Of a DNA stretch of 47,973 nt, positions 1,827 through 28,974 are shown piece after piece; within the stretch, counting starts at the first letter, position 1, and the number at the start of each line of letters is the position of its first letter. The notes beneath the pieces were generated by a model that was given only the letters and a program-made list of their open reading frames with translations, made no database searches and was not told where the DNA came from. The DNA lies in assembly GCA_902515155.1 (NCBI GenBank), contig CABXTT010000007.1, positions 1 to 47,973 of the forward strand. Reading direction: 5' to 3'. The position numbers and the translations under genes are program-made. This stretch comes from an uncultured SAR86 cluster bacterium. GTDB taxonomy: Bacteria; Pseudomonadota; Gammaproteobacteria; Magnimaribacterales; D2472.

Positions 1827-4800
1827 ATGAATCACTGGAAAAAATTTGTTCTTTCTTCCGCATTAGTTTTTTCAACATCTGCCTTTGCAATCGATACTAC
1901 ATCAGATATTAAAGGTAGTGTTGCAGACCAGTCTGGGAATTCAATTGCAAATGCTGAAGTTACAATTACGTACGAAGCAACGAATACTTCAAAAACTGTT
2001 AGCACTGACGCTAATGGTAATTTTTATGCACTTAACCTTAAAGCTGGAGGACCATATACAGTATCTTCCGGTGCTTCAAAAGTTTCAGACGTTACTTTAG
2101 CAATCGGTAAAACTGCAAACATTAAATTAGTTATTTCAACCTCTGGGTCCATTGAGGATGTGGTGGTAACAGCAACCAGATTGAATGTTGTAGAGACTAC
2201 TTCGGGTCCAAGTTATGTTTTCACAAGTACGGACTTAGCAAACGCTGCTGCGTATGATAGAGATATTAAAGAAGTTTTAGCTCAACATCCTTCAATCTAC
2301 ATTAACGAAGCAGATAATAAAGCCATGCAATGTGCTGGTAATAACAGCAGACTAAATGGATTAACAGTTGATGGAATAGCCCTAAATGATACTTTCGGTT
2401 TAAATTCAAATGGTTACCCAGCTGAAAGAATGCCTTTTTCATATGATGCAATTGATCAGGTGGCTGTAGAATTTGCTCCTTATGATGTTCAATACGGTGG
2501 TTTCTCAGCTTGTGTTGTAAATGCTGTAACAAAATCTGGAGGTAATGAGTTATCTGCTAGTGCTTTTTATGAATTTACAAATGACGGTTTAACTGGCGAT
2601 GAAGTTGAAGGATCATCTGTAACCATTCCTGAATACGATGAAGCTAAGTATGGGTTCACCGTAGGCGGTCCAATTATGAAAGATAAACTTTATTTTTTTG
2701 CTGCGTATGAAATGTATGAAGATCAAGATTTGGGTGAATTTGGATATGTTGGCTCAGGCATGCCAACAGAGTTATCTTGGTTTTCAAAAGCTCAGTTTGA
2801 CCAAATAGTCGATATTGCTAAAAATAAATATAACTTTGATCCAGGTGGCCTACCTTCAGTATTAGATAGTGAAAGTGAAAAACTTCTTGCTAAATTTGAT
2901 TATTATGTAAGTGACGACACAAGAGCAGTATTTACTTATAACTATAGTGAAGGTTTTACAAATCAACCATCTGATGCTTCTCCTACTGAGTTTGAGTTTA
3001 GTAATCATTTTTATAAAAGAGGTAATGAGTTAAACGCATATATGCTTCAAGTATTTTCATCAATTGGTGAAATTAACACCCAATTTAAATATGGTTATAA
3101 AGAGTTAGAAAATATGCAAGTAGGTCTTGGTGGTCCTTTTGGTGATTTTCAAATTAATGTGCCTGGAGGAAAAGTCTATCTTGGTGGTACTGATGATTCA
3201 AGACAAAATAACATGATGAATTATGACACTACTAATATGGCTTTAATTGGCGATTATCAAATGGGTAACCAACTTATAACATTTGGTTATGAGTATGAAG
3301 AAAGCAATATATTTAATATGTTTATGCAAGAGTCAATTGGCGGCGAGTGGGATTTTTATTCACTTGATTTATATGACTCAGGAACTGTTGCATTTGATTT
3401 CCAAAACACAGCAACATTGAACCCAAGAGATGCTTCAAAGCAATGGTCCTACGAAATTACTACTCTATTTATTCAAAGTGAAATGGCTGTCTCTGACATG
3501 CTTAACATATCATATGGAATAAGATATGAGGACTATGGTGTTCCAGTGGCACCACCTGCCAATTCAAGTTTTGCAACAACCTATGGATATTCTAATGCTT
3601 TAACTTATGATGGCGAAAGCATGCTAATGCCAAGATTATCATTTAGTTATAGACCAGATGCTGATACAGAATATTACGGTGGTTATGGTGTATTTTCTGG
3701 AGGAAATCCAGCTGTCTGGTTCTCAAATGCTTATTCAAATAATGGTGTAAGTATTATAGATGGTGATGGTAATTATAATGCTTTCACTGATCCAATGTGT
3801 GATCCATTAACAGGCGCTGCATCATCAGCAGGTCCTGGTTATGCTGTTCCTTGTGGGGCTATAACTAAGATTCAATCTGGATCAGCTAGAGGTGATACTA
3901 ATAGTTTAGATCCATCATTCGAGATGCCTTCATATGCTAAATTTTCTCTTGGTATGAAGAAGCAAATTGGTGAATATAATCTAACAATAGATTTCATGAA
4001 CTCTAAAAATAATGATCCATTGTATGTATATAACTTAGCTAATACGATCGGAGCATATGCTAATACAGGTCACGCAATCTCAACCTCTTCAGGTTGTTGT
4101 ACTGGTGATTATTCATTAGCAAATTCGTCTTACACTCCTGAGACAACTCTTTATTCAATAAATGTAAGTAGATCTTTAAGTGACAATGTAGATGTAACAT
4201 TTGGATATACTCATACCGATGCAGAAGACGTTCATCCAATGGGATCTAGTGTAGCTTATACCAATGCTAATGAAAATTTAGTTGCAGTTAATCCAAATAA
4301 TCCTGCTCCTGCAAGATCTAATTGGGAAATAGAGCACAGATTTGTGGGCTCATTAAACTGGATGGTATCTGACAAAACTAATGTTTCTTTATTTTATCAA
4401 AGAGCAAGTGGTAATCCTTATTCACTTTCTGCTTATGGTGGATTTGGTGAATTAGGAATTCAGCCTGGTTGGAGATCAGAAGACTTCCCATCAATTCCTC
4501 TTTATATTGGTGGCTCAAATGTTACTTATGCAAATTCAGCTACTGAAACCGGTCTTACTTCCCTTGGAACTGGTTTGTTAAATAGAAATGGGTTCACTTC
4601 AAAATATTCAACAAGAGTAGATCTTAAAATTACTCATACATTAGTTGATAATTTTGATGTTTATGCTGTTGTAAGAAATCTTGGAAATCTTCTTGATAGT
4701 GTTGTTCCTTCAGAATTTTTACCAATATCAGATGGAACCTATTATAGAAGTTCATCAGCAAATGGTGTTGCAACAGCTGATTTTGATTCTGCTGGAAATG

Positions 4801-4895
4801 TAGAGTATTCTGATTACACATCCCCATCAGTGAATGCAGCAATTGGTTCTGCATCTATATGGAATGTTAAAATTGGTTTTAAGTATTCTTACTAA
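1827..4895 (+). CDS. TonB-dependent receptor, Oar-like with N-terminal carboxypeptidase-regulatory domain
   Basis: Large outer-membrane beta-barrel transporter (1022 aa) driven by TonB. A signal peptide ends near Ala22 (…STSAFA). Residues about 27-100 form a CarboxypepD_reg-like beta-sandwich ('IKGSVADQSGNSIANAEVTI', 'STDANGNFYALNLKAGGPY'). A TonB-box-like 'IEDVVVTATR' follows near 110, then the plug ('VLAQHPSIYINEADNKAMQC') and a long barrel ending in aromatic 'IGFKYSY'. This architecture resembles Oar/RagA-type receptors for peptides or polymers, but the substrate is unknown. It has its own promoter and a strong terminator at 4914-4943, so it is probably monocistronic. It lacks the PYY-C-DYY loop of the other two receptors. 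Confidence 0.9.
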   Translation: MNHWKKFVLSSALVFSTSAFAIDTTSDIKGSVADQSGNSIANAEVTITYEATNTSKTVSTDANGNFYALNLKAGGPYTVSSGASKVSDVTLAIGKTANIKLVISTSGSIEDVVVTATRLNVVETTSGPSYVFTSTDLANAAAYDRDIKEVLAQHPSIYINEADNKAMQCAGNNSRLNGLTVDGIALNDTFGLNSNGYPAERMPFSYDAIDQVAVEFAPYDVQYGGFSACVVNAVTKSGGNELSASAFYEFTNDGLTGDEVEGSSVTIPEYDEAKYGFTVGGPIMKDKLYFFAAYEMYEDQDLGEFGYVGSGMPTELSWFSKAQFDQIVDIAKNKYNFDPGGLPSVLDSESEKLLAKFDYYVSDDTRAVFTYNYSEGFTNQPSDASPTEFEFSNHFYKRGNELNAYMLQVFSSIGEINTQFKYGYKELENMQVGLGGPFGDFQINVPGGKVYLGGTDDSRQNNMMNYDTTNMALIGDYQMGNQLITFGYEYEESNIFNMFMQESIGGEWDFYSLDLYDSGTVAFDFQNTATLNPRDASKQWSYEITTLFIQSEMAVSDMLNISYGIRYEDYGVPVAPPANSSFATTYGYSNALTYDGESMLMPRLSFSYRPDADTEYYGGYGVFSGGNPAVWFSNAYSNNGVSIIDGDGNYNAFTDPMCDPLTGAASSAGPGYAVPCGAITKIQSGSARGDTNSLDPSFEMPSYAKFSLGMKKQIGEYNLTIDFMNSKNNDPLYVYNLANTIGAYANTGHAISTSSGCCTGDYSLANSSYTPETTLYSINVSRSLSDNVDVTFGYTHTDAEDVHPMGSSVAYTNANENLVAVNPNNPAPARSNWEIEHRFVGSLNWMVSDKTNVSLFYQRASGNPYSLSAYGGFGELGIQPGWRSEDFPSIPLYIGGSNVTYANSATETGLTSLGTGLLNRNGFTSKYSTRVDLKITHTLVDNFDVYAVVRNLGNLLDSVVPSEFLPISDGTYYRSSSANGVATADFDSAGNVEYSDYTSPSVNAAIGSASIWNVKIGFKYSY

Positions 4896-10919: not shown

Positions 10920-13295
10920 ATGTCAAGTATCTTTTTAAAACCATTATTTGAAAAAAAAGTAGATCCTGTTACTGCTATTGTAAGAGATATATTTAAAGAC
11001 AATAATTATGCTCTTTCATGTTTAGGGGCTTTATCTCTTGGTTTGGGCGTAAGTCATGCAAATAACCTAGTTGCTCAAGATGACATTGAAGAAGTAATTG
11101 TTACGGCTTCAAAAAAAGAACAAAATATTCAAGATGTAGCTATGAGTGTTCAAGCTATCTCAGCAGCTGAATTAGAAAAGAAAAATATTAAAAGTTTAGA
11201 GGATATTGCAAATCTATCACCTGCTGTAACATTTAATAATGTTGGTCCAGGTAAATCTGATTTTTATATCAGAGGTGTCTCAGATGGATCTATAATGAAT
11301 AGCTACGCAGGTGCAGAAGCTACAACAGCTCTCTACCTTGATGAGCAACCTCTAACTGCGGCGAGTTTAACTCCAGATATACATGTTTATGATGTTGAAA
11401 GAGTAGAGGTTCTTCTTGGACCTCAAGGTACTTTGTATGGCTCCAGTTCTACTTCAGGAAACATAAAAATTATTACCAAGAAACCTGATCCATCTTCAAT
11501 TGATTATGGTTTTGATGTTGAATACGGATCTATAACTGACGGAGCAACTGATGATTCTCTTGAAGCATTTGTTAATATTCCGATTGGATCAAGTCTAGCA
11601 GCTAGATTTAGTACATACGAAGTCAATAACGGTGGTTGGATTGATAACCAAAGAGCAACTTTTACATATAGTCTTTCTGGTTACACAATTGATAATTATA
11701 CAGCTCCATATAATGTTGCAAAGGATGATTACAATGAAGAGGAAAAAGAAGGTAGCAGGCTTAGAATTTCTACAAACAATGACAATGTTAATCTTGATTT
11801 ATCTTTCCTAACTCAAACATCCAGCTATAGTGGATCATACGAAGCCGATGAAACTACTGATGATCTGTTAACAAAAATGGCACCAAGAACAAATACCAGG
11901 TTTACTCCTGAACAATATGATGATGAGTTTGATCAGATTTCAATGTCAATCACAGGAAACATTAACGATGATATGAGTTTCATTTTAACTTCTTCAATAT
12001 TTGAAAGAGAAACTAGTTATACATATGATTATTCTAGTTACGTTGAATATTATTATGGTGCTGGTAGTCCTTACTATGTTTGTGATTATTATGACTATTA
12101 TTACTATGGAATAGCATCAAACTGTCAAGATCCAAGAATGTCCTATGCGCAAAGTAATGATATAGAAAGAACTGCCACTGAGTTTAGAGTTCAATCTAAT
12201 AATGAAGATTCTGGTTTCCAATGGATTTTAGGAGCATTTACTGAAACTGATAAAAAATTAACTGATGTTGATTATCTTCAGCCTGGAGGTTATCCGATAT
12301 GGTGGGAAGCTGACCTTCAAAGAAAAGGAGAAAAAGAAGCTGTCTTTGGTGAGGCAACTATTGATATAACAGATAAAACTACCTTAATTATGGGATTCAG
12401 AGATTATAGTTCAGATATGGATCTTACAGCTGCAGATGGTTATTACGGTAGTTATGGATTTGGAATTAACGCAACTAATTTCAAAAACTCTGAATCTGGA
12501 TTTATACCAAAAATAAATGTAGCTCATGATATATCTGACGATATTATGGTTTATGCAAATATTACAGAAGGATTTAGGCCTTCTGGAGTTAATAGAGCAA
12601 GACCAAGTGATACAACTGTTCCAAAAGTTTATGATGCAGATTATCTTGAAAGTATGGAAATTGGTTTTAAGTCTAAATGGATGGATGGTAAGCTCACTGC
12701 AAATGGTGCATATTACGCTATGGACTGGTCTGATTATCAATCACTGACTTATGATTCAACTAGATCTTCAGCTGCTTTTGTTGAGAATGTTTCAGACGCA
12801 GAAATTAGAGGATTGGAACTTAATTTAATTTATAACCTAAATGACACTTCAACTGTCACAGCTTATATAAATTCAATGGATCCAACACTTGTAGAGGATT
12901 TTTATTCTGAAGGAGTACTTAATGCTTCATCTGGTAATAGGTTGTCCTATATGCCTGAATTAACATATTATCTTTCTTTTGATAAAGATTTTACATTAAT
13001 GGGCAAGCCTGCTTTTGCTAATTTAGACTATTCTTATAATGGTGATAGACGCGATGACATTTCTAATGACAGTAATCTTCTACCATCATATGCGTTAGCT
13101 AATTTTAGAATGGGAGTAGAAAATACTAATTCTGTTGTTGAGTTATATATAACTAATATAACTGATGAAGATGGATATTTATCTAGATACAATGATTTTG
13201 ATGATACTGCCAATCCACCTGCTCAAGGTTTTGGAATTAGGCAAACCAGAACTAAGCCAAGAGTTATTGGTATTCGATATAGATATAGATATTAA
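10920..13295 (+). CDS. TonB-dependent receptor with Cys-bounded Tyr-rich loop
   Basis: Outer-membrane TonB-dependent transporter of 791 aa. I chose ATG 10920 over the longer TTG frame because TATAGGGGG precedes it and the promoter lies upstream. The N-terminus has about 30 polar residues before the hydrophobic signal segment ('CLGALSLGLGVSHA'), unusually long. TonB box 'IEEVIVTASKKE', plug 'LEDIANLSPAVTFNNV' and 'RVEVLLGPQGTLYGSSSTSG' are classic for iron-complex/sugar-type receptors, and the barrel ends 'GIRYRYRY'. Between Cys388 and Cys402 lies a loop beginning 'PYYVCDYYDYYYY', rich in Tyr and Asp. A related loop occurs in the receptor at 21742. The substrate is unknown. Confidence 0.9.
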   Translation: MSSIFLKPLFEKKVDPVTAIVRDIFKDNNYALSCLGALSLGLGVSHANNLVAQDDIEEVIVTASKKEQNIQDVAMSVQAISAAELEKKNIKSLEDIANLSPAVTFNNVGPGKSDFYIRGVSDGSIMNSYAGAEATTALYLDEQPLTAASLTPDIHVYDVERVEVLLGPQGTLYGSSSTSGNIKIITKKPDPSSIDYGFDVEYGSITDGATDDSLEAFVNIPIGSSLAARFSTYEVNNGGWIDNQRATFTYSLSGYTIDNYTAPYNVAKDDYNEEEKEGSRLRISTNNDNVNLDLSFLTQTSSYSGSYEADETTDDLLTKMAPRTNTRFTPEQYDDEFDQISMSITGNINDDMSFILTSSIFERETSYTYDYSSYVEYYYGAGSPYYVCDYYDYYYYGIASNCQDPRMSYAQSNDIERTATEFRVQSNNEDSGFQWILGAFTETDKKLTDVDYLQPGGYPIWWEADLQRKGEKEAVFGEATIDITDKTTLIMGFRDYSSDMDLTAADGYYGSYGFGINATNFKNSESGFIPKINVAHDISDDIMVYANITEGFRPSGVNRARPSDTTVPKVYDADYLESMEIGFKSKWMDGKLTANGAYYAMDWSDYQSLTYDSTRSSAAFVENVSDAEIRGLELNLIYNLNDTSTVTAYINSMDPTLVEDFYSEGVLNASSGNRLSYMPELTYYLSFDKDFTLMGKPAFANLDYSYNGDRRDDISNDSNLLPSYALANFRMGVENTNSVVELYITNITDEDGYLSRYNDFDDTANPPAQGFGIRQTRTKPRVIGIRYRYRY

Positions 13296-14164
13296 TTAAT
13301 AATATCCTTTAAAACTAATGCCAGCTTGTCTGGCATTTCAAAATATGGGAAATGTCCAGATCCTTCTAATATTCTTACGTTAGTATCAATATTAATATGC
13401 TTAATAAGTTCGGATTCTTCATTAAATCTAGCCAACTTATCCTTTTCTCCAAATATAAATTTTATACTCTCTATATTATTTATTTCATTAATTTCTACCC
13501 TGTAAGCAGAGCAAGCTTGAAGATCCTTTGAGAGAATCTCTTTATGAGTTTGGTTAAAAATCTTTTTTAAAGGATAAAGTTTAATTTCTCTTTCTGGGTC
13601 AGATTCAACAGTTTTAGTTCCATAAGGCGATTTTATAACGCCTTTAGATCTTCCATAGAAGCCTGATCCCATGACCCCAAAACCAGAAGATTTAATCTCT
13701 ACTTCAGGTAAAACTCGAACACCATATTTTGTTAAAAATTCAGCAGCTTGATCAAGATTACCTTTTGCGTGTTGTAGTAAGATTTCTCCAACCATAAGAG
13801 GATAGCTAGTATTCATTAAGATCGGATTTGTATTTTTATTAATTATAGCTAAATCTAATGCTACAAGACCGCCCATACTATGACCAATAACTATAGGATT
13901 TTGAACTTTTAAAGCACTTATCACATCATTACAAAATTGCGAATAATCCTTTATGTCTGCCTTTACAGGCCCTGAAGTATAACCATGACCTGGTAAATCG
14001 ATAGATAATATATTGAAGCTATTTGGTAGATCTAAAAAGTTAAAAAGATTACCCATTCGATGATCCATTCCAGCTCCAGGAATTAGAATAATAGATTCTT
14101 TAGAATCATCAAATTCATTATGATTAAATATATGAGCTTTATGATTTCTTAATTCTATAAACAT
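13292..14164 (-). CDS. Alpha/beta hydrolase
   Basis: Cytosolic serine hydrolase of 290 aa. 'SIILIPGAGMDHRMGNLF' is the oxyanion strand, 'SIDLPGHGYTSGP' the following loop, 'VIGHSMGGLVALDLA' the nucleophile elbow (Ser96), 'FIFGEKDKLARFNE' the acid and 'LEGSGHFPYFEMP' the His. It resembles general Abhydrolase_6 esterases or haloperoxidase-like proteins, and its substrate is not predictable. Its start lies inside the 3' end of the BCCT gene (26-nt overlap), so it is co-transcribed with that carrier and may process what it imports. It overlaps the convergent TBDR stop by 4 nt. Confidence 0.83.
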   Translation of the reverse strand: MFIELRNHKAHIFNHNEFDDSKESIILIPGAGMDHRMGNLFNFLDLPNSFNILSIDLPGHGYTSGPVKADIKDYSQFCNDVISALKVQNPIVIGHSMGGLVALDLAIINKNTNPILMNTSYPLMVGEILLQHAKGNLDQAAEFLTKYGVRVLPEVEIKSSGFGVMGSGFYGRSKGVIKSPYGTKTVESDPEREIKLYPLKKIFNQTHKEILSKDLQACSAYRVEINEINNIESIKFIFGEKDKLARFNEESELIKHINIDTNVRILEGSGHFPYFEMPDKLALVLKDIIN

Positions 14165-15623
14165 TTTTTAATATCGAGTAAATTAATAAGCAGTTAATAA
14201 ATAATAACGGCACAGAGAATATCACCATTACCCACTTAAAGGAATCAACCCCATTTAAATACATTAGAAGAGTTGGCTGAACTACTAATAGGAATGCAAA
14301 AACTAGTCTTAAAGACTTAGATCCACTAATTGTAGAATCTTTCATTGAAGCAGATGCTAAAACATATGATGCTGAATCATAGGTTGTGCACAAAAAAATA
14401 ATAATTATAAATGCAAAGCCTATTAATAATATATACCCAAAATCAAGACTCATGATTGAATTAACAACAAGGTCTTCGCGTGAATAAATTTTATTTTCAA
14501 GAATATTTGGAGCATTAATTGCGCCTAATTCAAATAAATGTATTGATAGATTAGATAAGATAGTCATGCTTAAAACACAGCCCAAAGTCCCTATTAAAAT
14601 TGATCCAAATATAACTTCTCTAAGAGTTCTATTATTAGAAATATTGACTAAGAAAGTACCAACCATAGGCGCAAGCGCATACCACCAAGCCCAGTAAAAT
14701 ACAGACCAATCTAAACTTATTTCGGTGCCTGTAGTTAAACTCATATCTATATAGTTGCTTGACAGAAAGCCTAATGTTTTTATTGAATTGCTAAAGATGT
14801 AAGAAGTTGGACCTAGCAAAAATACAACTATTAAAAAAATTATTACTAAAATCATATTTAAATTACTCAATCTCTTAATACCGTTCTGAACCCCAATATA
14901 GGCGCTAGTTGCAAAAATTACAGAACAAATAAGAATGGTAAAGATATCTAAAGAAAATGTTCTTTCAATCATAAATATTTTTGATATAACCGATGATATC
15001 AGGGGAAATGAAAGACCAAGTCCAACACCAGCTCCGCAGATGATAGCTCCTATAAAAAGAACATCTAAAATAAATTTTAGTATTGTATTTTGAACACTTA
15101 ATATACCTGAAAAAGTTAAATTAGAATTTGGTTTTAATGTTAAAGCCAGTCCAAATGCTACAACTGGAAGACAATATATTGCCCAAGCAGTAAAGCCCCA
15201 ATGAAATATTGGATAAGACCTTGAATAGAGTAAAAGTTCTTCAGAAGTTAATTCAGTATCATTCTTTAGAATATTATAGTATTCAATCCATTCTATTGTT
15301 GACCAATACAAAAGAGTTGCTCCTATCCCTGCTGCAAAAAGCATGGAACTCCAAGACAACATTGTGTAGGTTGGTTTATTTTGAAGCTTGAGCTTTATAG
15401 TTCCGTATCTTGATAAAGCTAAGCAAATTAGAAAAATTAATAAAAGAAAACTGCCATACATATAAAAATCTTCAAACATGACTGACAAAATTCCATAGGT
15501 TTGAGATAAGATTGAAGAACTGAATTCTGGATCGACTAAAACAAATATTGATAGCAATATTGACAGCAAAATAGTTATACTAATTACAGACTTATTCCAA
15601 TTTGGATCAATAATTTTTAACAT
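14139..15623 (-). CDS. BCCT-family transporter, divergent
   Basis: Betaine/carnitine/choline-type secondary carrier of 494 aa with about 12 helices. Family landmarks are 'SMLFAAGIGATLLYWSTIEW' near residues 90-110, 'PIFHWGFTAWAIY' and 'GVQNGIKRLSNLNM'. It departs from BetP-like carriers: the GxxEP end of the helix-3 motif is replaced by STIEW, and the WWxxW aromatic-box stretch reads WWYAL, losing the third Trp. The second copy at 20092 keeps both. Its substrate may therefore differ from quaternary amines. Its ATG abuts the divergent sulfotransferase ATG exactly (CATATG). Confidence 0.87.
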   Translation of the reverse strand: MLKIIDPNWNKSVISITILLSILLSIFVLVDPEFSSSILSQTYGILSVMFEDFYMYGSFLLLIFLICLALSRYGTIKLKLQNKPTYTMLSWSSMLFAAGIGATLLYWSTIEWIEYYNILKNDTELTSEELLLYSRSYPIFHWGFTAWAIYCLPVVAFGLALTLKPNSNLTFSGILSVQNTILKFILDVLFIGAIICGAGVGLGLSFPLISSVISKIFMIERTFSLDIFTILICSVIFATSAYIGVQNGIKRLSNLNMILVIIFLIVVFLLGPTSYIFSNSIKTLGFLSSNYIDMSLTTGTEISLDWSVFYWAWWYALAPMVGTFLVNISNNRTLREVIFGSILIGTLGCVLSMTILSNLSIHLFELGAINAPNILENKIYSREDLVVNSIMSLDFGYILLIGFAFIIIIFLCTTYDSASYVLASASMKDSTISGSKSLRLVFAFLLVVQPTLLMYLNGVDSFKWVMVIFSVPLLFINCLLIYSILKNVYRIKKS

Positions 15624-20091: not shown

Positions 20092-21567
20092 CTATAATTC
20101 CTCTTCAAGCGATCTATAGAACTCTCTACAAGCAAAAGCAGTTATTATCGAAAAAGGAACCCCAAATATTACAACTGCTGTTTGAAGAGCTCCTAACCCT
20201 CCAGCCTTTAATAAAACAGCTGCAACTACACCGAGTAATATTGCCCAAGTGATTCTTGAAATAAGTGGAGAATCACTATTGATATCAACATGTTTCTTTG
20301 ACGAAAGCATTGATGCAACCAATGCACCTGAGTCTGAGGATGTTACAAAAAAAGTAACGATTAAAATTAAAGAGGTTATTGATAACAATTTTGTAAAACT
20401 TAAGGAATCAAATAATACAAATAATGCAGTGCTAGCATTTGAACTTACAGCACCACTTATATCTCCTATATTGTTAAGTACTTGGTAAATAGCTGCATTA
20501 CCAAAAACACCCATCCAAATAAATACTATTAATGAGGGCACCAAAAGTACTCCAATTATAAATTCTTTTATCGATCTTCCATATGAAATTCTTGCTATAA
20601 AAAGAGACACAAAAGGCGCCCATGCAAACCACCAAGTAAAATAAAATAATGTATATCCATTTTGATAGACTGAATCATTATATGCCTCAGTCCAAGTAGA
20701 CAGCTGAATCAACTGATTAAGATAGACCCCAGCATTTTGAATCATGGCATTAAAAATGAATACAGTCGGCCCCAATATTAAAGTTAGAAGTAAAAGTAAA
20801 ATTGCTATGCCCATATTCATTTGAGAAAGTCGCTTTATTCCCACATCAAGTCCAAGACAAACACTTATTAAGCCAATAATTGTAATAACTACAATGATTA
20901 CAAACTCATTAAGTTTAATGTTAAAAACGTAATCTAATCCGCCATTTATTTGAGTTGCTCCTATTCCTAATGAAGTTGCAATGCCAATTACGGTTGTAAG
21001 TATTGCAATAATATCAATCAGCGTTGCCAATAATTTATTGCTCTCAACTTTAGACCCTAATAACGAACTAACTCTAAATGCCTTATTTCGATTATATGAA
21101 GCAAAAGCAAAACATAGACCAAGTGATGAATATATTGCCCAGCCATGAAGACCCCAATGTAAATTAGTAAGACCAAGAGCTTTACCAGCGTTATTTGAAA
21201 GATCTCCATCAACCATTCCTGGATAATCATTTAAGTTACCAATTGGCTCAGCAACACCATAAAATAATAGACCAATACCCAAACCTGCACTAAAAAGCAT
21301 AGCAATCCAATTTGTATAACTATATTTTGGCTTTGCGTCTATACCACCAAGTTTAATATTTTTATATTTTGTAAAGATTAATGATATTGAAAAAATCACA
21401 AAACCATTAGCAATTAAAATTATAAACCAGCCTAAATATTCTGATAAGAAAATTTGAGTATTTTTAAATAATTCTGCTGACTGAGCAAGATTATTAAAAA
21501 CTACACTTGTAATAATTACTAATAAAAGTACTGATGTAAAAAACCTTGGCTTGTTGATATTTTCCAT
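20092..21567 (-). CDS. BCCT-family transporter (betaine/choline/DMSP-type)
   Basis: Sodium- or proton-coupled carrier for quaternary ammonium or sulfonium compounds, 491 aa from ATG 21567. A TTG 15 codons upstream is open but has no ribosome-binding site. Landmarks are complete: 'FSAGLGIGLLFYGVAEP' with the GxGxG and GxxEP features, 'HWGLHGWAIYSSLGLCFA', 'GLDVGIKRLSQMNM' and the aromatic-box stretch 'FTWWFAWAPFVSLFIARIS' with all three Trp. Likely substrates are glycine betaine, choline, carnitine or DMSP. The DmdA-like gene 6 kb away makes DMSP attractive but unproven. It is divergent from the TBDR at 21742. Confidence 0.92.
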   Translation of the reverse strand: MENINKPRFFTSVLLLVIITSVVFNNLAQSAELFKNTQIFLSEYLGWFIILIANGFVIFSISLIFTKYKNIKLGGIDAKPKYSYTNWIAMLFSAGLGIGLLFYGVAEPIGNLNDYPGMVDGDLSNNAGKALGLTNLHWGLHGWAIYSSLGLCFAFASYNRNKAFRVSSLLGSKVESNKLLATLIDIIAILTTVIGIATSLGIGATQINGGLDYVFNIKLNEFVIIVVITIIGLISVCLGLDVGIKRLSQMNMGIAILLLLLTLILGPTVFIFNAMIQNAGVYLNQLIQLSTWTEAYNDSVYQNGYTLFYFTWWFAWAPFVSLFIARISYGRSIKEFIIGVLLVPSLIVFIWMGVFGNAAIYQVLNNIGDISGAVSSNASTALFVLFDSLSFTKLLSITSLILIVTFFVTSSDSGALVASMLSSKKHVDINSDSPLISRITWAILLGVVAAVLLKAGGLGALQTAVVIFGVPFSIITAFACREFYRSLEEEL

Positions 21568-21679
21568 ATTGGATAATTGTTTAAAAAGTGAATTTTTATC
21601 AGTGAAACACAATTAAAATTAATTTTCTATACAAATGTATAAACATATATAGAAAATAGATATATTTACTTAACCCGAT

Positions 21680-21741: not shown

Positions 21742-24330
21742 ATGATAAATAACTTTAAAATAATACAAAATAAAATATTGCCTTCGCTTTCAGCGCTTGC
21801 TCTAGTTAATGCTTCTGTATTTACTGGAATAGTCGGTGCCCAAAGTCAAGCTACTGTTGAGGAAATTGTAGTAACGGCACGAAAAAAATCAGAGAGTCTT
21901 CAAGATGTTCCACTTTCAGTTTCTGCAATAAGAGAAGAAACTCTAGAAGAAAAAGGAATAAATGTCTTTGAGGACTATTTACTACAATTACCTGGCGTTA
22001 CCGCTGGTGGTTCAGGCCCTGGAACAAGTACTATTTATATTAGAGGTCTTGCCTCAACTACTCCAAATATTACAACTGCAGGTGTGGGTGGTTTAGCTCC
22101 TAACGTATCTTTTTATCTTGATGAGCAGCCTCTTGCTCAGCCAGGAAGGAACTTAGATGTTTATGCGGCTGACGTTTCTCGAATTGAGGTACTTGCAGGA
22201 CCGCAAGGAACTTTATTCGGTGCAAGTGCTCAAGCTGGTGTTGTAAGAATGATTACAAACAAACCTGTCATTGGAGATTCTGAAAGTAGTTTAGAAGTTG
22301 AAACTAGATTTACTCCTGAGGGTGATCACGGTTCAAAAGTAGAATATATGTCTAATATCCCATTAGGTGATAGTACTGCAATGAGATTTGTTGCATACAG
22401 AGATAGAAAAGGTGGGTATATAGACCAAGTTGCTGGAACAGTTAATGTAAGTTCATCAGCACGTTGGAGACCATCAGGAACTATGAGAGCTAATGGCGTT
22501 CCAGTTGAATCAGCAAGAAATGGCTTCAAGGTAGGAACAGATCTTTCTGGAGCAACTTTGCCAAATGCAAATGCTATTGTTGAAGATGACGTTAATGGAA
22601 CAACTTATGAAGGTTTTAGAGCAAGTGTTAAGCATCAAATTAATGATAACTGGGATGCATTAGTAACTGTTGCTAATCAAACTATAGAATCTGATGGTGT
22701 CTTCTTTGCAGATCCAACTTTAGGTGACTTAGAAGTAAATAGATTTTCTGATGATTCACTTTCAGATGAATTTGATAACATAAGTTTAACTTTAGAAGGA
22801 TCTATTGGTGATCTCGATATTGTTTATGCTGGTGCTTATACAGATAGATTCTCTGATCAGATCGTTGATTACACAGATTATCTTTTTGTTGGTCAATATC
22901 TTCCATACTATATATGTGACTATTATGTATCTTATCCACAAAATGGAGTTGCAGTTGGGCAGTGTGGTGCCCCAAATTTATATGTTGAGTCAGATACAAA
23001 TACAGAAGTTATGACTCATGAGTTAAGAATTAACACTGATTTGAGTGATACTATGAGCTTAACAGCTGGTGTATTTGTTAGTGATTTAGAGCTTTTAGAG
23101 CATAATATGTTTACATACCCTGGTGCATTAGTAAGTGATATCGGTTGGGGAATTAACTATGCGCTTACAGATATTTCAGTAACTGGTATTCCAACACACG
23201 GCAAATCTAAAATGTATGCTGGAGCTGGATGGAACTCTGGAAGAGGTCCTTACATGCCCCCTGTAATGTTTATTAATGATATTAAAAGAACTGACAAACA
23301 AAAAGGTGTCTTTGGTGAAGTTAATATAGCAATGTCCGATACCGTTGAGCTTACCTTAGGTGCTCGTTGGTATGATATTGAAGTTGACTTAGAAGGAAGT
23401 GCTAATGCTTCATTTAGTACTGGCTTTGGTGGAGGTGATCAGCAAAGATTTGGAACAAACCTTTCAGGTGCTTTTAATGCTCCAGGAGAGATTACAGGCA
23501 ACCCAACTTTGGATGCACTGGATTATCCTGACAAACAAATAACAGATGGTGTTATTGGCAAAGCAACTTTGGCTTGGAATAAATCAGAAGATGTGATGTA
23601 TTACGTTACTTGGTCCGAAGGCTTCAGACCCGGTCTATTAAACAGACCTGCTGGACAATCAACTCCAGATGGTTCTTATACAGTTAGACCTGTTACTGAT
23701 TCAGATGAAATTACGAACTATGAATTTGGTTGGAAAACAATACTAAGAGATGGTCAGCTTCGATTTAATGGTGCAGCCTTTTTTGTCGATATTAGCGGTT
23801 TACAAACATCTATTTTTGATCCGAGTATTGCTAATCTGTTTTTCTCAGACAACGCTGCAGATTCAGAAATAACCGGTGTAGAAGGTGACTTTACTTATTA
23901 CACTAATACAGACGGTTTGGTTGTATCAGGTGCCTTTTCAATGCTAGATTCAGAGATTAAAAAATCTTTAACAACTGGTGATGTTGTAGCTGGTATGCCT
24001 TTAGCTTTTGCGCCTGAAATGCAAGGTAATATTGCAGTCAGAAAAGAGTGGGGTATGTCTTCTGGTAATATGGGACACATTCAAGCTCAATTAACTTGGT
24101 CTGATGAAAGTTACTCAGATATTATTGAGGCCAACAAAGGGAAGCAAGACAGTTATAGTTTTATGAACCTCAGAGCCGGTATCAGTAATGATGAATGGAT
24201 GACAGAGCTTTATGTTGATAACATCACAGATGAAAGAGGCGAAATTAGTAATAATTTTGTCTTTGACGTTGAGCGTGTTACATACATTAGGCCTACGACT
24301 GTAGGTATTAGATTTAAACAAAACTTCTAA
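21742..24330 (+). CDS. TonB-dependent receptor with Cys-bounded Tyr-rich loop (paralogue of 10920)
   Basis: Outer-membrane TonB-dependent transporter of 862 aa. The signal peptide spans about 1-32 ('SLSALALVNASVF…GA'), the TonB box is 'VEEIVVTARKKSE', and the plug carries 'IYIRGLAST' and 'RIEVLAGPQGTLFGASAQAG'. The barrel ends 'VGIRFKQNF' with a terminal Phe, as OMPs require. It is clearly related to the receptor at 10920: both have 'SFYLDEQPL'/'ALYLDEQPL' in the plug and a loop 'PYYICDYYVSYP' bounded by Cys392 and Cys408. It has its own promoter and a terminator after it, with the TPR-sulfotransferase next. The ligand is unknown. Confidence 0.92.
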   Translation: MINNFKIIQNKILPSLSALALVNASVFTGIVGAQSQATVEEIVVTARKKSESLQDVPLSVSAIREETLEEKGINVFEDYLLQLPGVTAGGSGPGTSTIYIRGLASTTPNITTAGVGGLAPNVSFYLDEQPLAQPGRNLDVYAADVSRIEVLAGPQGTLFGASAQAGVVRMITNKPVIGDSESSLEVETRFTPEGDHGSKVEYMSNIPLGDSTAMRFVAYRDRKGGYIDQVAGTVNVSSSARWRPSGTMRANGVPVESARNGFKVGTDLSGATLPNANAIVEDDVNGTTYEGFRASVKHQINDNWDALVTVANQTIESDGVFFADPTLGDLEVNRFSDDSLSDEFDNISLTLEGSIGDLDIVYAGAYTDRFSDQIVDYTDYLFVGQYLPYYICDYYVSYPQNGVAVGQCGAPNLYVESDTNTEVMTHELRINTDLSDTMSLTAGVFVSDLELLEHNMFTYPGALVSDIGWGINYALTDISVTGIPTHGKSKMYAGAGWNSGRGPYMPPVMFINDIKRTDKQKGVFGEVNIAMSDTVELTLGARWYDIEVDLEGSANASFSTGFGGGDQQRFGTNLSGAFNAPGEITGNPTLDALDYPDKQITDGVIGKATLAWNKSEDVMYYVTWSEGFRPGLLNRPAGQSTPDGSYTVRPVTDSDEITNYEFGWKTILRDGQLRFNGAAFFVDISGLQTSIFDPSIANLFFSDNAADSEITGVEGDFTYYTNTDGLVVSGAFSMLDSEIKKSLTTGDVVAGMPLAFAPEMQGNIAVRKEWGMSSGNMGHIQAQLTWSDESYSDIIEANKGKQDSYSFMNLRAGISNDEWMTELYVDNITDERGEISNNFVFDVERVTYIRPTTVGIRFKQNF

Positions 24331-27828: not shown

Positions 27829-28974
27829 ATGTCTCAAGAGCTTGATGATTTTGGCTTTGGAACGCAAATTAGGAAAAGTCCTTTTTTTGATGCAACTATA
27901 AGATGGGGGGCACAAGGCTTTTCTGTATATAATCATATGTACATACCCAGAGATTTTGGAGATCCAGAACAAAACTTTTGGAACTTACTTAACGATGCAA
28001 TTCTTTGTGATGTTGCAGTCGAAAGACAAGTTCAAATCAAAGGTCCTGATGCATCAAAATTTGTTCAAATGATGTCACCTAGAGATTTATCAAATATGCA
28101 GGTTGGTCAATGCAAGTATGTAATTCTTACCAATCAATTTGGTGGAGTATTAAATGATCCTGTTTTACTTCGTGTTAAAGAAGATTGTTATTGGTTCTCC
28201 TTAGCAGACAGTGATGTTTTATTTTGGGCTTTAGGCCTTGCATCAAATGGAGACTATGATGTTGAAATAACTGAGCCTGATGTATCGCCGCTTCAGCTTC
28301 AAGGTCCAAAATCTAGAGATATCATGATTAAATTATTTGGTGATGAAATTAAAGATCTAAAATATTACTGGTTTAAAAATTTGAAACTTGGTGACATTAA
28401 TCTATTAGTTTCCAGAACAGGCTGGTCAAGCGAGCTTGGTTATGAAATCTTTCTTTTAAATACCGAGGAGGGTGATGAGGTTTATGAAACCATTATGCAG
28501 GTAGGTAAAGACATAGGCCTTCACGCAGGTCATACATCAACAATAAGAAGGATTGAGGGCGGTATGTTGTCTTATCACTCTGACATGAATATTGATACTA
28601 ATCTTCTTGAATTAGGAATGGATAGACTAGTAGATCTTGATAATGATTTTGATTTTATAGGTAAAAATGCATTGCAGAAAATTGCAAAGGAAGGAGTTAA
28701 GAATATGCAAGTTGGTTTAGTTATTCATGATGACCCTATGCCTAGACCAAATACGAAATATTGGAATATTTATAATAATAAATCTATGGTTGGAAAAGTT
28801 ACGTCTGCAGTTTATTCGCCTCGTTTAAAAAAGAATATTGCGCTGGCAATGGTAGATATAAACTCCTCAGTTATAGGAACAAAACTAACAGTTGAAAAAG
28901 ATAATAAAGTTATAGATGCAGAAGTTGTTGAGAAGCCTTTTTACGATCCAAAAAAATCAATTACAAAATCATAA
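27829..28974 (+). CDS. DmdA/GcvT-like aminomethyltransferase family protein
   Basis: Tetrahydrofolate-dependent enzyme of 381 aa with the GCV_T domain (about 25-270) and C-terminal barrel (about 285-370). Motifs resemble DMSP demethylase DmdA as I remember it more than glycine-cleavage GcvT: 'GFSVYNHMYIPRDF' near the N-terminus, 'VAVERQVQIKGPDA', 'MMSPRDLSNMQVGQC' and 'GGVLNDPVLLR', where GcvT has GGxxDD. 'SDSDVLFWALGLA'-like and 'LQGPKSRD' segments also fit. DmdA moves a methyl from DMSP to THF, giving methylmercaptopropionate. No gcvH or gcvP is near. A dimethylglycine- or sarcosine-type demethylase is the main alternative. CAGGAT precedes the ATG. Confidence 0.75.
   Translation: MSQELDDFGFGTQIRKSPFFDATIRWGAQGFSVYNHMYIPRDFGDPEQNFWNLLNDAILCDVAVERQVQIKGPDASKFVQMMSPRDLSNMQVGQCKYVILTNQFGGVLNDPVLLRVKEDCYWFSLADSDVLFWALGLASNGDYDVEITEPDVSPLQLQGPKSRDIMIKLFGDEIKDLKYYWFKNLKLGDINLLVSRTGWSSELGYEIFLLNTEEGDEVYETIMQVGKDIGLHAGHTSTIRRIEGGMLSYHSDMNIDTNLLELGMDRLVDLDNDFDFIGKNALQKIAKEGVKNMQVGLVIHDDPMPRPNTKYWNIYNNKSMVGKVTSAVYSPRLKKNIALAMVDINSSVIGTKLTVEKDNKVIDAEVVEKPFYDPKKSITKS

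Follow-up and report, generated by a model that had tools for sequence, protein, structure and literature searches.

The window analysed here, a stretch of 47,973 nucleotides from an uncultured SAR86 cluster bacterium (contig CABXTT010000007.1, assembly GCA_902515155.1), contains two TonB-dependent receptors (TBDRs), P0001 and P0002, and two sulfotransferases, P0004 and P0005, that both combine a PF13469 domain with tetratricopeptide repeats (TPRs; Table 1). A first-pass annotation of the sequence singled out a Tyr/Asp-rich loop bounded by two cysteines in each receptor, and proposed that the enzyme nearby sulfates its tyrosines before the receptor is exported. The loop lies where it was placed. 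Specifically, PYYVC of P0001 occupies 12069-12083, with Cys388 at 12081-12083 and Cys402 at 12123-12125, and PYYIC of P0002 occupies 22903-22917, with Cys392 at 22915 and Cys408 at 22963. The distances to the enzymes are also as claimed: P0004 starts 2.3 kb past P0001, from which it is separated by two minus-strand genes, and P0005 starts 0.1 kb past P0002. The two receptors are 28% identical overall, yet the loop is aligned and kept. The source genome (1.02 Mb, 75% complete) encodes 2 PF13469 proteins and 12 TBDRs with a Plug domain. Both PF13469 proteins and the only two of the 12 receptors with a YYxC...C loop fall within the window; for each of the other ten, the piece examined ended 1.5 kb beyond the Plug match, and other Cys pairs occur in some.

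Table 1. Receptor, enzyme and transporter genes of the window, with the motifs discussed in the text.
Feature	Position	Strand	Support
TBDR P0001, 791 aa, partner 1	10920..13295	+	PF07715 E 1e-16, PF00593 E 5.6e-27
DYSSY (D370-Y374), D-Y-x-x-Y motif of P0001, candidate modification site	12027..12041	+	coordinates, conservation
Cys388-Cys402 Tyr/Asp-rich loop of P0001 (loop of the first-pass annotation)	12069..12125	+	
alpha/beta hydrolase between receptor P0001 and enzyme P0004	13292..14164	-	PF12697 E 1.4e-16
Betaine/carnitine/choline family transporter (BCCT)	14139..15623	-	PF02028 E 1.5e-96
TPR-sulfotransferase P0004, 655 aa	15624..17591	+	PF13469 E 7e-45
BCCT transporter, divergent from and directly upstream of P0002	20092..21612	-	PF02028 E 4.4e-154
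TBDR P0002, 862 aa, partner 2	21742..24330	+	PF07715 E 2.5e-17, PF00593 E 3e-26
DYTDY (D376-Y380) of P0002, start of predicted extracellular loop 4	22867..22881	+	
PYYIC...C loop (P388-C408) of P0002, predicted extracellular loop 4	22903..22965	+	
TPR-sulfotransferase P0005, 676 aa	24425..26455	+	PF13469 E 1.2e-44

The catalytic domain of the enzyme resembles tyrosylprotein sulfotransferases (TPSTs), in support of the proposal of the first-pass annotation. Because a search of the PDB with the full-length profile is dominated by TPR proteins, the catalytic domain was searched by itself. The best fold matches of its model in P0005 (predicted local distance difference test, pLDDT, 90) are human TPST1 (Z 21.8), tick TPST (Z 21.6) and TPST2 (Z 21.3); TPST matches fall at Z 21.0-21.8, with 15-19% identity over the fold alignment, versus 16.9 and 16.3 for the next sulfotransferases. 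In the sequence search, the top scores go to tick TPST and TPST1 (E 7.7e-13 to 3.8e-12, 49.4-51.6 bits), polyketide synthase (PKS) sulfotransferases come next (E 1.0e-11 and 4.7e-11, 47.9 and 45.8 bits), and TPST2 ranks below these (E 2.5e-9 and weaker, 39.7-40.1 bits). The TPST alignments extend further than the PKS ones, through a C-terminal SxxQVxxP block. The catalytic residues of human TPST1 are given as R79, E100, K159 and S286 in the available part of PMC5562738. They align with R432, E453, K512 and S631 of P0005, which are invariant in 42 enzymes; the counterparts in P0004 are R424, E445, K501 and S620. The TPR array resembles the TPRs of O-GlcNAc transferase (OGT) by fold match. Inspection of the N terminus by eye revealed no signal peptide, and the enzyme is therefore probably cytosolic.

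The AlphaFold2 model of P0002 (mean pLDDT 86) is composed of a plug and a barrel in which 22 strands were counted. Its fold matches are TonB-dependent transporters, with FyuA at Z 38.7 over 613 residues. Strands 7 and 8 of the 22 are joined by a loop of residues 377-413, with pLDDT of 72 for residues 381-390 and 85-88 for residues 391-410. Because this loop, loop 4, lies on the long-loop side of the barrel, a side read from strand order, both a D-Y-x-x-Y motif and the Cys-closed, Tyr-rich loop behind it are predicted to be extracellular, in agreement with the surface position that the first-pass annotation gave to the Cys-closed loop.

Receptor and enzyme are linked among the relatives of the source organism. 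PF13469 was found in 56 of 81 related genomes; most of these 56 genomes of the SAR86 order also carry a second, short PF13469 protein (~340-390 aa), too short for a long TPR array. The pattern YYxCDYY occurs at 25 sites in 20 of the 81 genomes, versus one match in the reversed control. At 22 of these sites, a TPR-type enzyme has its sulfotransferase domain no more than ~7 kb away. The remaining three comprise a contig break (G067), a receptor missing its C-terminus and without enzyme (G044) and a site outside recognised receptors (G039:C1). The matches G039:C1 and G449:C1, with no enzyme nearby and no recognised receptor, were counted as chance. Both PF13469 and the YYxCDYY pattern are missing from all 21 genomes that two families of the order, f3 and f4, contribute to the 81. 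Receptors of the P0001 type in SAR86 lie 1.5-5 kb from the enzyme, with minus-strand genes between. Loop-bearing receptors without a TPR-sulfotransferase, which the first-pass annotation took as the first sign that would speak against its proposal, are thus rare in the genomes searched. Two irregular loci were also seen. In G044 (C8; L121:9021-11183, minus strand), a class A receptor (see below) is shortened to 721 aa with no enzyme after it, and the pair junction may have been lost as one piece. In G002 (C13; L114:5790-10471), a receptor ORF (open reading frame) broken after 353 aa adjoins a 597-aa enzyme ORF, through decay or assembly error.

The link reaches far wider than SAR86, and is seen from the side of the enzyme, of the loop and of the receptor. 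An enzyme alignment was used to scan a collection of genome contigs, and the best 80 loci were kept. These come from SAR86, Erythrobacter, Novosphingobium, Sphingobium, Hyphomonas, Parvularcula, Emcibacter, SAR92, Woeseia and others; named carriers include Erythrobacter sp. NAP1 and Parerythrobacter lutipelagi, and the lineages, gamma- and alphaproteobacterial, include SAR86, Sphingomonadales and Hyphomonadales. A TBDR is paired directly upstream at 79 of these best 80 loci. At 78 of them the gap between a same-strand receptor ORF and the enzyme downstream measures 15-528 bp; locus L160 is paired with its enzyme ORF split, and locus L203 is without a receptor. [YFH]YxC is found in 69 of the 78 upstream receptors; of the nine that lack it, L173 and L209 are fragments. 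The usual form of the loop in upstream receptors is PYYICDGSVSYPG...GTC, so the DYYDYYYY of the window is a local elaboration. A locus of Rhodothalassium salexigens (L188:4136-9631) has tandem receptors ahead of one enzyme, both with the loop and DYxxY.

From the side of the loop, 119 genomes of the Parerythrobacter family contain 20 sites of the loop pattern versus none in the reversed control. For nineteen of them an enzyme is found no more than 3 kb away; the remaining one falls outside recognised receptors. In 232 genomes of the window's class, the pattern was found in the source genome and two others, both with receptor then enzyme; the count in this set (4 matches) is not above chance, because the reversed control matched 7 times. 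A shorter pattern, YYxC[DN], matched no more often than its reversed control and was discarded.

From the side of the receptor, a P0002-like query of the 119 Parerythrobacter-family genomes (up to 8 candidates scored per genome) found an enzyme within 1.5 kb at 43 of 46 loci; of the three unpaired, two are at contig ends and the third is G360:C3. In 386 genomes of Parerythrobacter's class (up to 2 candidates scored per genome), 13 genomes matched. Two of them (G312, G380) were already known as paired, and in the other 11 all 12 receptor loci adjoin an enzyme, one of which (L316) is the earlier locus L199, leaving 11 new. All 12 keep both tyrosines of the D-Y-x-x-Y motif, with Asp376 replaced by Ala in one and by Glu in another.

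Starting from the enzyme in the same 119 genomes, 43 of 82 enzymes have a P0002-like receptor (E <1e-45) within 1.5 kb; some of the loci of the other 39, which lack one at this strict threshold, were fetched. A receptor ORF lies no more than 1.5 kb away at 34 of 36 more distant enzyme loci (enzyme profile of at least 600 bits). The exceptions are L265, with no subfamily receptor, and L285, with none by ORF search though the receptor scan places one. An adjacent receptor was seen in 18 of the first 19 regions fetched around distant enzymes. Over 147 pairs, the distances among receptors correlate with those among enzymes (Spearman coefficient 0.86). Clustering of the neighbours at 52 loci (L157 onward, over 15 kb, ORFs of at least 120 aa) recovers the receptor at 51, the enzyme at 49, a BCCT transporter at 36 and any other gene at 12 or fewer. 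The constant neighbour of the enzyme is thus the TBDR, and no other clustered gene is near-universal; a small peptide gene could be missed, because ORFs under 120 aa were left out.

The pairs fall into two classes. In class A the enzyme follows the receptor; in class B, often found with the more distant enzymes of the Parerythrobacter family, the enzyme comes first. The YYxC loop is found in none of 28 class B receptors. Common to both classes is D-Y-[ST]-x-Y, directly ahead of the loop position. Counted anywhere in the protein, DYxxY is present in 119 receptors of class A (125 in all; 18.3 expected from shuffles of each protein) and in 27 of class B (28 in all; 3.5 expected). In the alignment, Tyr377 (P0002 numbering) is kept in 123 of 125 class A receptors, Tyr380 in all 125 and Asp376 in 118; all three are kept in 27 of 27 aligned class B receptors. 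These counts leave out receptor ORFs under 600 aa, sequence duplicates and rows L001-L068, L224-L227 and L230-L249, and include two rows from outside the subfamily (class B row L189, 34 bits; class A row L183:17528, 291 bits). Seventeen tyrosines of P0002 are conserved in at least 80% of 50 partners, and only three of them mostly have an acidic residue at -1: Y79 in the plug (48/50), Y377 (46/50) and Y380 (38/50). The latter two, which lie just ahead of the loop, have this residue in P0002 itself.

The motif marks a receptor subfamily. A profile built from class A partners scores subfamily receptors above ~380, versus 34-310 for other receptors. DYxxY is present in 11 of 43 controls and absent from the other 32, including L124. 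Nine of the 11 (L073, L090, L121, L127, L142, L143, L188, L270, L271) are subfamily members that are severed from their enzyme, lie far from it, are duplicated next to it or lack it, and L126 and L223 have DYxxY elsewhere in the protein. Six rows have a receptor on the opposite strand; in L082, L084, L092 and L265 these are unrelated receptors, and L272 and L273 keep DYTYY. One subfamily receptor was found in a genome without PF13469, that of G059 (SAR86, 94% complete), in which the motif reads DYSGF, with Tyr380 changed to Phe. G463 and G468, from the family of G059, have 99% identical receptors and no adjacent enzyme, the enzyme having been searched for at the locus only. The first-pass annotation had offered the ORF at 1827 as a receptor lacking both loop and enzyme. 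It is a poor control: the large barrel protein at 1827-4895, which we take to be Oar-like, matches PF25183 and PF13620, and neither PF07715 nor PF00593.

The gene pairing, the TPST-like fold with conserved catalytic residues, the predicted extracellular position and the conservation of the motif in two classes are well supported. From them we infer that the receptor is the substrate and tyrosine the acceptor, together with the tyrosines involved, the timing before export and the purpose. Our favoured explanation, to which we give a little less than an even chance, is that the window carries two copies of a conserved pair, a TBDR and a dedicated TPST-like enzyme that sulfates receptor tyrosines before export. 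Specifically, the TPR superhelix would hold the freshly made, unfolded receptor, and the catalytic domain would transfer sulfate from 3'-phosphoadenosine-5'-phosphosulfate (PAPS) to its tyrosines; the acceptor region of TPST substrates is thought to be intrinsically unfolded, according to the available part of PMC5562738. The receptor would then be exported by Sec and folded, and the sulfotyrosines would end in extracellular loop 4. As sites, both tyrosines of D-Y-x-x-Y (Y371 and Y374 in P0001, Y377 and Y380 in P0002) are the strongest candidates, with the Cys-closed Tyr loop of class A as a possible additional substrate. The modification would serve to adjust how the receptor binds the ligand it imports, through a site both aromatic and negatively charged. 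In class A this ligand may be a cationic osmolyte that then goes to a BCCT transporter.

Several observations weigh against this explanation. The main confounder is descent: receptor subfamily, motif and enzyme partner travel together. Pairing and motif, both features of one receptor subfamily, are therefore not independent, and, because of the shared descent, conservation alone cannot name the modified residue, or say whether there is one. The Spearman value carries no species-tree correction. The change of Tyr to Phe is a single event, counting G059, G463 and G468 together, with genome-wide absence of the enzyme established for G059 alone, and an intact receptor without adjacent enzyme (L270) keeps DYSYY in a genome that has the enzyme elsewhere. 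For TPST1, the available part of PMC5562738 describes Km as governed to a large extent by Asp at -1 and an acidic +1 residue; the +1 residue of this preference is missing at Y377 and Y380 (0/50 each) and also at Y79, and Y79, in the plug, would not be surface exposed although it has an acidic residue at -1. The sequence margin of TPST1 over the PKS sulfotransferases is small, and TPST2 falls below both. P0001-type pairs in SAR86 are not operons, because minus-strand genes intervene. Finally, export competes with modification in the cytosol.

A slightly less probable reading, compatible with the sulfation of the receptor, is that the Tyr-rich, Cys-closed loop binds, as an aromatic cage, an osmolyte of the quaternary ammonium or sulfonium type, such as betaine, choline, carnitine or dimethylsulfoniopropionate (DMSP), which is passed to the nearby BCCT transporter; its tyrosines may be unmodified. 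Aromatic cages bind such cations. The loop is well kept in class A, with Y386 in 104, Y389 in 110, Y390 in 123, Y398 in 115 and each Cys in 117 of 125 receptors. The BCCT gene is the third recurrent gene at the pair loci: among 105 class A loci whose upstream sequence spans 2.5 kb or more, 84 have it somewhere in the region fetched, 40 of these in divergent orientation directly upstream, and none of 25 class B loci has it. Receptors of class B lack the loop, and the regions fetched for them are shorter than most of class A. Two BCCT genes also lie close to the pairs of the window (the one at 20092..21612 scores 450 bits with NF047988, under the model cut-off of 650), as does a GcvT-fold (aminomethyltransferase-fold) protein at 27829-28974 that comes near the DMSP demethylase model NF009133 (371 bits, under the cut-off of 410). 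Because BCCT recurs at its loci, class A may serve osmolyte uptake, with the Tyr loop as a cation-binding cage. However, among class A receptors the loop is about as frequent with BCCT as without: 70 loop receptors are with and 17 without the transporter, and the others 8 and 2, an odds ratio of 1.03 in a table that omits class B because its regions are short. The cage also leaves the enzyme partner and DYxxY unexplained. In the available part of PMC10040529, TonB receptor, BCCT and sulfotransferase clusters appear among genes that co-occur with halotolerance, with no link drawn among them.

Somewhat doubtful is that the enzyme acts on the imported ligand or on another protein, and that the genes are linked by serving one pathway. 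The PKS-line sulfotransferase domains, which are not known to be protein sulfotransferases, are close to the enzyme by sequence and next by fold (4gox, 4gbm), and BCCT and a few possible genes of methyl-group catabolism are nearby. However, by fold the enzyme is closest to protein sulfotransferases, and its TPR array is like that of OGT. In addition, every further gene of the neighbourhood is less constant than receptor and enzyme, and BCCT was not found at the 25 class B loci.

We consider it unlikely that sulfation takes place mainly in the Cys-closed loop (CDYYDYYYY in P0001), as the first-pass annotation proposed. The P0001 loop has D-Y pairs with an acidic residue at -1, and many of its P0001-type relatives in SAR86 are dense in tyrosines there. 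However, YYxC is missing from class B, where an enzyme is adjacent all the same, and the first Cys is gone in 8 of 125 class A receptors, so that the loop cannot be the general substrate. The G059 receptor, from a genome without PF13469, retains PYYTC...C. The acidic residue at -1 that human TPST prefers is present at the extra DYY units of the window's loop, which are variable (positions 394 and 395 differ across class A), and missing at the conserved loop tyrosines, with an acidic residue at -1 of Y389 and Y390 in 0 of 50 partners. The loop is thus probably not the key site. That it is a functionless product of chance, a low-complexity, AT-rich Tyr run, can be practically dismissed: the P0001 loop is indeed a run of TAT and TAC codons, but its layout is kept in receptors of 28-75% identity and in distant bacteria among the matches listed.

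To our knowledge, tyrosine sulfation of bacterial proteins is known from one well-studied system, RaxST and RaxX of Xanthomonas. In the descriptions on which the likeness rests, a TPST-like enzyme encoded in the same gene cluster acts in the cytoplasm before its substrate is secreted (PMC9372746, PMC6637879). RaxX is a small secreted peptide, whereas the pair described here is widespread and joins an outer-membrane receptor to an enzyme with a TPR array. Human and tick TPSTs are the best fold match, with the catalytic Arg, Glu, Lys and Ser aligned. We know of no TPR array in the human enzymes. They differ further in being membrane-anchored with a luminal catalytic domain, according to the available part of PMC5562738. 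OGT also joins a TPR superhelix to a catalytic domain that modifies proteins, and the match is in the TPRs only. Its chemistry and catalytic fold differ from those of a sulfotransferase. FyuA, FoxA, FhuA and BtuB, transporters of siderophores, cobalamin and heme, share the receptor fold at 14-19% identity; we know of no partner enzyme of this kind for such transporters. Among the titles and opening parts of abstracts listed from the open-access literature, none links a TPR-sulfotransferase with a TBDR.

Extended from the window to the whole group, our tentative proposal is that a widespread proteobacterial TPR-linked, TPST-like enzyme sulfates D-Y-x-x-Y in loop 4 of its partner TBDR and so creates a sulfotyrosine surface for ligand binding, with which the osmolyte class would capture betaine-like cations. 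If this is true, bacteria would have a means of modifying their surface receptors that has been little explored, and the named carriers Erythrobacter sp. NAP1 and Parerythrobacter lutipelagi would make it testable at once. It would also bear on nutrient uptake by abundant ocean bacteria and on their recognition by phages and bacteriocins.

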